Of a stretch of 64,000 nt of DNA, positions 32,328 through 64,000 are shown piece by piece (within the stretch, counting starts at the first letter, position 1; each line of letters starts with the position of its first letter). The stretch comes from Pirellulales bacterium (lineage in GTDB: Bacteria > Planctomycetota > Planctomycetia > Pirellulales > JAEUIK01): the NCBI GenBank assembly GCA_019636335.1, contig JAHBXR010000001.1, positions 186,001 to 250,000 of the forward strand, written 5' to 3'. Under the pieces are notes generated by a model. That model saw only the letters and a program-made list of their open reading frames with translations, was not told where the DNA came from and made no database searches. The position numbers were made by a program, and so were the translations under genes.

Positions 32328-32590
32328 GGAATTGTCTCCTGGCAAGAAGCGTGTGCTTTTGACCGTTCGGTAAGAACGCCCACAGCATAACGAGTTTCCA
32401 GGCCAGGGACTCGCATCGGCCCCACTCCGTCGTTAAATTTAACCCGAAGCGTGAGTTTTAAAGTGGCCCGATTTGATCCGGGGCTGGCGCCGCGCGAAAA
32501 TCCACAGCCAGCGCGGTGGCCGAAAATCGACGGCGCAACAAGCCGCGCACCCGTGTACAGTGTAGGCACATCGAATGTTGTCCGATTTTG

Positions 32591-32656
32591 TAGGTCAGGT
32601 ACGCGCGTACCTGACACTGGTTCGACTTGGCCACGTCGAATGTTGTCTAGTCTGAC
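32591..32656. repeat. type A palindromic element, partial copy
   Basis: Contains the perfect 22-bp palindrome GTCAGGTACGCGCGTACCTG (+AC) at 32594-32615, followed by a CCAC(G/A)TCGAA segment shared with 63308-63336. The right-hand palindrome seen at 63337 is degenerate here. CACATCGAATGTTGTC also lies just to the left. Confidence 0.8.
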
Positions 32657-62328: not shown

Positions 62329-63285
62329 ATGATGGCATCGGACACCGGCATTTCGACGCTCGACTGGCGCGCGGCCGGGCTTCGCTACCACGCCTACAAC
62401 CACTACCTGCGGCGCAAGTTCGGCGGCCGCGTGCAGAAGGTGAGTCTCGACGCCGGTTTCACCTGCCCCAACGTCGATGGGACCGTGGCCATCGGCGGTT
62501 GCGTCTTTTGCGACAACCGCAGCTTCAGTCCCAGCCGACGGGTGCCGCGGACGTCGATCCGCGGTCAACTCGAGGAGGGCATCCGGCGGTTGAAGTGGCG
62601 CTACGACGTCGACCGCTTCATGGCCTATTTTCAGCCGGCAACGAATACGTATGCCCCGGTCGAGCGGCTTGAGCCGCTCTATCGCGAGGCGATCGACGAT
62701 CCCCGCGTCGTAGGCCTGGCTATCGGCACCCGTCCCGATTGCGTGCCCGACCCCGTGCTCGATCTGCTGAGCGATCTTGCCCGGACGACCTATCTGTCGC
62801 TCGAGCTGGGCATGCAGTCGATGCACGACCGTTCGCTCACGTGGATGAATCGGGCGCACGACCACGCGAGCTTTCTCGACGCGATGTCGCGCGCTCGCGG
62901 ACGGGGCTTCGAATTGTGCGCGCACGTCATCATCGGAGTGCCGGGCGAGAGTCGCGACGATATCCTGGCGACGGCGCGGGAACTCGCACGGCTGAAGATC
63001 GACGCCGTGAAGCTGCACAACCTTTACGCGGTGCGCAAGACACCGTTGGGAGATTGGGTGGCGGCGGGCGAAGTCAAGCTCATGGAGCGCGACGAGTACA
63101 TTGCGACCGTGGTCGACTTTCTCGAACTGCTGCCGCCGGAGTGCGTCGTCGAGCGCGTGAGTGGCGAAGCGCCGCCCGATTATCTCGTCGGTCCAGCCTG
63201 GTGCCTCGACAAGCCCGAGATCCGCCGTGCGCTCGACGGCGAGTTCCGCCGGCGCGATACGTGGCAGGGGAAGTGCTTCAAGTAG
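62329..63285 (+). CDS. TIGR01212-family radical SAM protein (YhcC type)
   Basis: A 318-residue radical SAM enzyme. The Cys cluster reads FTCPN(10 residues)GGCVFCDN (C-x-x-C at the end, residues ~44-60). Other family motifs: ATNTYAPVERLEPLYREAI, GTRPDCVPDPVLDLL, SLELGMQSMHDRSL, HVIIGVPGESRDDIL and DAVKLHNLYAVRKT. The function of this family is not settled. Its TAG stop lies inside the palindromic element at 63283. Confidence 0.93.
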   Translation: MMASDTGISTLDWRAAGLRYHAYNHYLRRKFGGRVQKVSLDAGFTCPNVDGTVAIGGCVFCDNRSFSPSRRVPRTSIRGQLEEGIRRLKWRYDVDRFMAYFQPATNTYAPVERLEPLYREAIDDPRVVGLAIGTRPDCVPDPVLDLLSDLARTTYLSLELGMQSMHDRSLTWMNRAHDHASFLDAMSRARGRGFELCAHVIIGVPGESRDDILATARELARLKIDAVKLHNLYAVRKTPLGDWVAAGEVKLMERDEYIATVVDFLELLPPECVVERVSGEAPPDYLVGPAWCLDKPEIRRALDGEFRRRDTWQGKCFK

Positions 63286-63360
63286 GTCAGGTACGCGCGT
63301 ACCTGACAATCAATCGAGTTTGCCACATCGAACGATGTCAGGTACGGAGTACCTGACCTA
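63283..63360. repeat. type A composite palindrome carrying the stop codons of both flanking genes
   Basis: Left palindrome 63286-63307 (GTCAGGTACGCGCGTACCTG+AC) and right palindrome 63337-63357 (GTCAGGTACGGAGTACCTGA+C) are joined by a 29-nt spacer. The outer ends TAGGTCAGG and CCTGACCTA mirror each other. TAG at 63283 ends the radical SAM gene; the mirrored CTA at 63358 is the TAG of the minus-strand gene. Confidence 0.9.
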
Positions 63361-64000
63361 CTTCCTCTCATCCTTCCACACCTGACGCTTGGCTTTGAGC
63401 AGCCGTTCGGTGTAGCTCTCCGGCTCCTGGTCTTTTTCCGGCGCCAGCGACGTGGGTTTAGGCTTCGGCGTTTCGCGTGGTGCGATCAGCGTGGACTTTA
63501 TTTCTGAAGCTAGGTCGACGTTCGTCGTCGCGGCGGGCGTGCCTTCTTGCGGCTCGAAGTGGGCGGCCGCGCGGCGTTCCTCCATCTGGCGATGGATCGC
63601 TTCCTTGCGCGCCTGCAAGCGCGCCATGGCTACCGGAGCAGGTTGTAAACGCTCGCGGCGCAGCACGCGATCGCGCACGAGGGCGAGCTTCCCGTAGATC
63701 CAACTTGGATCGACCATCACGCGACGGTTGAACACGTCGGCGAAGAACAGGCACGCCACGATGAAGGCGAGCACGTGCCACGCCGATTGTCGGCTGCTGG
63801 CCAGCGGCAGATCGCGGCGGAAGACGTTGACTCCCACCGCCTGTTCGAGCGACTCGTCGTCCGTAGGCTCTGGAATCACCTGGCCCGACTTGCCCCCCTC
63901 GGGCACGATCGATGCCAGCCGTTCGAGCAACGCGGCATTGCTTTCTCGATCGGCGAATTCTGGGGAGTAGGGCACGCTGACGCCCCCCCGCACGGCCGCG
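63358..64000 (-). CDS. C-terminal part of a large membrane protein (VWA/BatA-like), cut by the window edge
   Basis: The frame is open to position 64000, so only ~213 C-terminal residues are seen. They begin with SVPYSPEFADRESNAALLERLASIVPEGG, a motif seen in planctomycete VWA/glutamine-amidotransferase-like proteins, and contain one transmembrane helix (WHVLAFIVACLFFADVF). A basic, charged coiled-coil region (LQARKEAIHRQMEERRAA) and Pro-rich tail follow, ending YTERLLKAKRQVWKDERK. Assignment to the family is inferred. Confidence 0.6.
   Translation of the reverse strand, partial: AAVRGGVSVPYSPEFADRESNAALLERLASIVPEGGKSGQVIPEPTDDESLEQAVGVNVFRRDLPLASSRQSAWHVLAFIVACLFFADVFNRRVMVDPSWIYGKLALVRDRVLRRERLQPAPVAMARLQARKEAIHRQMEERRAAAHFEPQEGTPAATTNVDLASEIKSTLIAPRETPKPKPTSLAPEKDQEPESYTERLLKAKRQVWKDERK

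Follow-up and report, generated by a model that had tools for sequence, protein, structure and literature searches.

A GTAG-tagged REPIN/RAYT family in a Pirellulales bacterium and a copy whose TAG ends both neighbouring genes

Introduction

REPINs and RAYTs have been described as systems in which inverted REP doublets form the repeated unit, the RAYT gene is present as a single copy with REPs at its borders, and the stop codon of that gene is immediately followed by a REP (Bertels and Rainey 2011, PMC3116915; Nunvar 2010, PMC2817692). TnpA-REPs cleave at CT or CA dinucleotides in vitro, and these sites are selected through the GTAG motif (PMC8266576). The supply of stop codons by GTAG-tagged REPs was published in 2013 as a side effect, and GTAG repeats are on record for the PVC superphylum (Di Nocera, De Gregorio, Rocco, PMC3733652; that paper names TAG opal, whereas TAG is amber).

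The palindrome analysed here belongs to this described phenomenon and represents a new REPIN/RAYT family. It shared the doublet organisation, the single-copy RAYT, the bordering REPs and the REP after the RAYT stop with the described systems, but its host is of the Pirellulales type. Compared with the GTAG-tagged REPs of PMC3733652, the family differs in its stem (GTCAGGTAC/GTACCTGAC) and in its host. A phase count and a comparison of orthologue ends are added to that picture.

Results

Anatomy of the palindrome and the two stops

The window was a stretch of 64,000 nucleotides from a Pirellulales bacterium (GCA_019636335.1, contig JAHBXR010000001.1, positions 186,001 to 250,000). Near its end, two convergent genes met at the palindrome, and the features were as follows.

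62329..63285, + strand: gene A, tRNA modification radical SAM protein MnmL/YtqA (TIGR01212), 318 aa, ending ...QGKCFK*
63282..63361: REPIN, an inverted REP doublet, GTAG...CTAC, 80 bp
63282..63307, + strand: left REP, GTAG tag and hairpin GTCAGGTAC-GCGC-GTACCTGAC
63283..63285, + strand: TAG in the left GTAG, stop of gene A
63308..63336: spacer of 29 nt separating the REPs, its sequence varying among copies
63337..63361, - strand: right REP, inverted, hairpin GTCAGGTAC-TCC-GTACCTGAC (- strand reading) and GTAG tag
63358..63360, - strand: TAG in the right GTAG, stop of gene B
63358..64000, - strand: gene B, with VWA and GATase1-like domains, ending ...KRQVWKDERK* and running past the window

Gene A scored 327.6 bits against TIGR01212 (cut-off 180). 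Read on the + strand, the element consisted of GTAG, GTCAGGTAC-GCGC-GTACCTGAC, 29 nt, GTCAGGTAC-GGA-GTACCTGAC and CTAC, so that the letters of the junction were TTC AAG TAG GTCAGGTACGCGCGTACCTGAC - 29 nt - GTCAGGTACGGAGTACCTGAC CTA CTT. A preliminary description had stated that the TAG at each mirrored end is the actual stop of the convergent neighbour and that both genes terminate in AAG-TAG-GTCAGG; the open reading frames (62329-63285 on the + strand, and that ending at 63358 on the - strand) and the sequence agreed with both statements. The palindrome itself was also real, but its borders were corrected from 63283-63360 to 63282-63361, which takes in both G's of the GTAG tags.

The single-strand fold of 63282-63361 had a free energy of -51.1 kcal/mol with a z score of -7.3, which was equalled by none of 200 shuffles. 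The stems were perfect with loops of 3-4 nt, unlike the E. coli REP, whose stem is described as bulged. No T-run was found by eye 3' of 63282-63361 on either strand, and the element is therefore not a typical intrinsic terminator. The sole other hairpin copy in the window was a single REP of the same family at 32590-32616 (GTAGGTCAGGTACGCGCGTACCTGAC).

The REPIN family across the genome

In the fetched loci, 60 distinct doublets were catalogued, most of them 78-80 bp with tags, and the copies were mostly outside genes. The full doublet pattern gave 30 matches per strand, which correspond to 30 places as the pattern is palindromic, and the reversed control pattern gave 0; patterns with relaxed ends added doublets beyond these 30 exact ones. 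A whole-genome search, in which part of the candidates was scored, yielded 84 strand-matches, or about 43 places. The consensus fold of 18 copies contained 27 pairs, nearly all invariant, and an exact GTAG was present at 96 of the 120 borders. Inverted REPs with a spacer formed the repeated unit and a long single-strand hairpin, as in REPINs, and the GTAG stood at the 5' foot of the REP stems, as in the GTAG REP super-family. REPINs are non-autonomous miniature elements of two inverted REPs, and the element at 63282-63361 is one of them. The only Rfam match, to the mir-2238 hairpin, was below threshold and spurious.

In 14 of 46 elements both REPs had the same loop letters, against a mean of 8.8 in shuffled pairs (p 0.03), which is weak evidence that the two arms of the REPIN evolve together. 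At two loci (L067:1500-1530 and L068:1500-1530) a minimal palindrome consisted of just a single hairpin bounded by GTAG at each end (GTAGGTCAGGTACCCCGTACCTGACCTAC), resembling a REPIN collapsed to one stem. Three REPs in alternating orientation formed a small BIME-like array at L044:1500-1640.

The cognate RAYT transposase

The genome has four Y1_Tnp genes. One of them, on a contig other than that of the palindrome, encodes the RAYT, which was present as a single copy.

G000:C3:317236-317787 (L049:4237-4788), - strand: RAYT, 183 aa

The protein matched NF047646, REP-associated tyrosine transposase, with 189 bits (cut-off 80; 3e-56), and E. coli TnpA-REP (4er8) with an E value of 8e-40, the HxH motif and the VDY/FDY tyrosine region being aligned. 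Four exact GTAGGTCAGG sequences, belonging to REPINs of the same stem, surrounded the gene on both sides, and one REP hairpin of this stem directly followed its TAA stop. The other three Y1_Tnp genes had no exact GTAGGTCAGG within the fetched loci. A second, distant Y1_Tnp gene (L033, G000:C2:50964-51317) was 27% identical to the RAYT and contained one in-frame TAG.

RAYT homologues with about 50-66% identity, from other families of the order, also had REPs alongside, with the same GTAG but with other stems (GTAGGTCAGGCC, GTAGGTCAGGCAC, GTAGGATGGGTGC and GTAGCGTGGGTGC). The GTAG thus stayed fixed while the stems diverged, as in known RAYT/REP pairs, and this pattern indicates that RAYT and REP stems co-evolve.

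Flanks of the insertion sites

CT or CA occupied positions -3/-2 before the GTAG at 34 of 96 borders, compared with about 11 at other offsets, and a G immediately preceded the GTAG at one border of 96. The left border of 63282-63361 (TTCAA before GTAG) had CA at -3/-2. No target-site duplication was found at the catalogued REPIN borders, which is expected for the HUH/Y1 type. The homology to E. coli TnpA-REP, the GTAG guide motif and the CT/CA dinucleotides near the hairpin resembled the features of REPtrons (PMC8266576), and the CT/CA enrichment is indirect support that the RAYT may cleave and mobilise the REPs here. Look-alike flanks had raised the idea of insertion into palindromes or terminator loops; this was rejected, as the left-right symmetry of the flanks was that of shuffles, except for a weak signal at -2 (p 0.03).

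Stop donation and reading phase

Gene ends were taken from a home-made codon-usage caller, with the checked donated genes belonging to recognisable families, and all gene statistics refer to the fetched loci. Genes heading into an element and ending within -400 to +130 nt of it were found at 76 of the 120 borders. At 12 of the 120 borders, in ten elements, the gene stopped at the TAG of the tag: on both sides at L001 (63282-63361) and L009, and on one side at L007, L011, L016, L017, L027, L038, L062 and L063. The expectation that further copies would supply stops was thus confirmed. If borders are independent, 0.65 double donations are expected; two were seen (P 0.14), and double donation was rejected as a special event.

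Among the genes that reached an intact tag, 12 of 13 entered it in the TAG phase (binomial p 1.7e-5). The sole gene that crossed an intact tag in another phase, at L029, gained seven extra codons. A further gene, at L064, ended at a degenerate border. At seven of the 12 donated ends the last two codons were AAG-TAG or AAA-TAG, giving a C-terminal lysine.

The preliminary description had proposed a defined element inserted at gene ends that donates stop codons. A defined, dispersed element that lies at gene ends and gives TAG was indeed found. It is not specialised for donating stops: GTAG is the standard 5' REP tag, and the majority of copies (50 of 60) supply none.

Gene ends in relatives

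That description had also held that relatives sharing the gene ends but lacking the element would speak against such an insertion. This was largely what the comparison showed. Relatives of gene B, of the universal stress protein and of NhaD ended at the same place or within about two residues of it, with their own TAA, TGA or TAG and without the element, while those of gene A were mostly longer. The element has therefore mostly replaced native stops and did not define the ends. The end residue was the same in 6 of 6 universal stress protein homologues (stops TAA, TGA or TAG) and in 5 of 8 NhaD homologues, whereas the ends of the uracil-DNA glycosylase homologues differed by -1 to +4 residues, and an ABC protein was 1-8 residues longer than its homologues.

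At the MnmL/VWA locus, the element was absent from the relatives compared, which belong to other genera. The end of the VWA protein lay within about two residues of those of three relatives without the element. The tails of gene A relatives were mostly 0-9 residues longer (24 in one) and unconserved, and gene A was likely slightly truncated by the REPIN. When the flanks were joined without the element, the end of gene B stayed in place (...KDERN, TGA), and 12 codons overlapping gene B were added to gene A. These joined flanks make it probable that the 3' ends of the convergent pair once overlapped or met, and that both stops came with a single insertion. At most other donated borders the joined flanks left no nearby stop, and no offset from -4 to +4 generally restored native stops, the -4 row and partly the -3 and -2 rows being trivial as element letters are kept. 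Decay of boundaries or flanks would account for this, or else simple joining does not capture the whole event. In a Pirellulales MAG (JALHLM010000320.1, L101:3900-4060), the MnmL/YtqA orthologue ended in TCG TAG GTCAGGCAC, a REP-like sequence with a different stem and apparently an independent stop donation.

Discussion

The REPIN has very probably been spread by the RAYT; the TAG within its GTAG ends neighbouring genes, and the surviving copies would be those filtered by reading frame or lying past a native stop. We infer the mobility, the insertion event and the selection behind the phase bias from the sequences compared. The RAYT, a TnpA-REP of the HUH/Y1 type encoded elsewhere, would insert the REPIN next to CT or CA, and the GTAG would be kept as TnpA-REP reads the tag as a recognition or guide motif. 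Because the GTAG contains TAG, a gene that enters the element in one of the three phases stops there. Among insertions, those just past a native stop would survive, as would those that hit one of the last few codons with the TAG in frame, and at the MnmL/VWA junction a single insertion into a tail-to-tail pair would have supplied both stops. For the TAG stop itself, a by-product on which reading frame acts as a filter is the best explanation.

A host-selected, bidirectional gene-end module, in which the hairpin and the stop were recruited for mRNA 3'-end or translational control, is rather doubtful. Incoming genes on both sides were found for 26 of 60 copies (43%), compared with 15% of the intergenic points of the window, and in E. 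coli ribosomes are reported to stall at REPs that lie within 15 nt of a stop, according to work cited in PMC12306157. As in E. coli, a large share of the copies here lay within 15 nt of a stop, but here the stop can belong to the repeat itself. The module is opposed by the missing T-run, by the relatives that lack the element at the MnmL/VWA locus, and by the unrelated genes that the copies adjoin.

Active targeting of stop codons or gene 3' ends by the RAYT, which would make the donated stops a matter of target choice instead of selection, is unlikely. The crowding at 3' ends would fit such targeting, with 22 of the 62 other incoming genes stopping within 15 nt before the tag (about 9.5% expected from the window's intergenic points), as would the native ends shared with universal stress protein and NhaD relatives. 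AA also preceded the GTAG more often where a stop was donated, in 7 of 12 cases against 11 of 84 at the other borders (Fisher p 0.001). However, what marks the flanks is CT/CA at -3/-2 and not a stop codon, and insertions became gradually fewer with distance past the stop. A tolerance of about eight terminal codons, at the roughly 1.5 insertions per nt observed downstream of stops, yields the 12 donated ends, so that stop-codon targeting is not needed.

Equally improbable is a role of translation in fixing the motif, by which GTAG families would be kept, or would spread better, as one frame is always safely closed, and translation would filter the REPINs. The CGTC and GTGG families have guide motifs without a stop, unlike GTAG. 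An ordinary palindrome that arose by chance at the gene junction can be dismissed, since nothing beyond the shortness of TAG favours it, against 60 copies, 0 control matches and a cognate RAYT.

Spread of the REPIN by its RAYT accounts for both stop codons at the junction, and no new mechanism is needed. A well-defined REPIN/RAYT family of about 60 copies is added for a Pirellulales-type planctomycete. The count of 12 to 1 in favour of the TAG phase suggests that reading frame filters the sites at which REPINs survive, and annotated C-termini in such genomes should be read with caution, as they can be repeat-derived.
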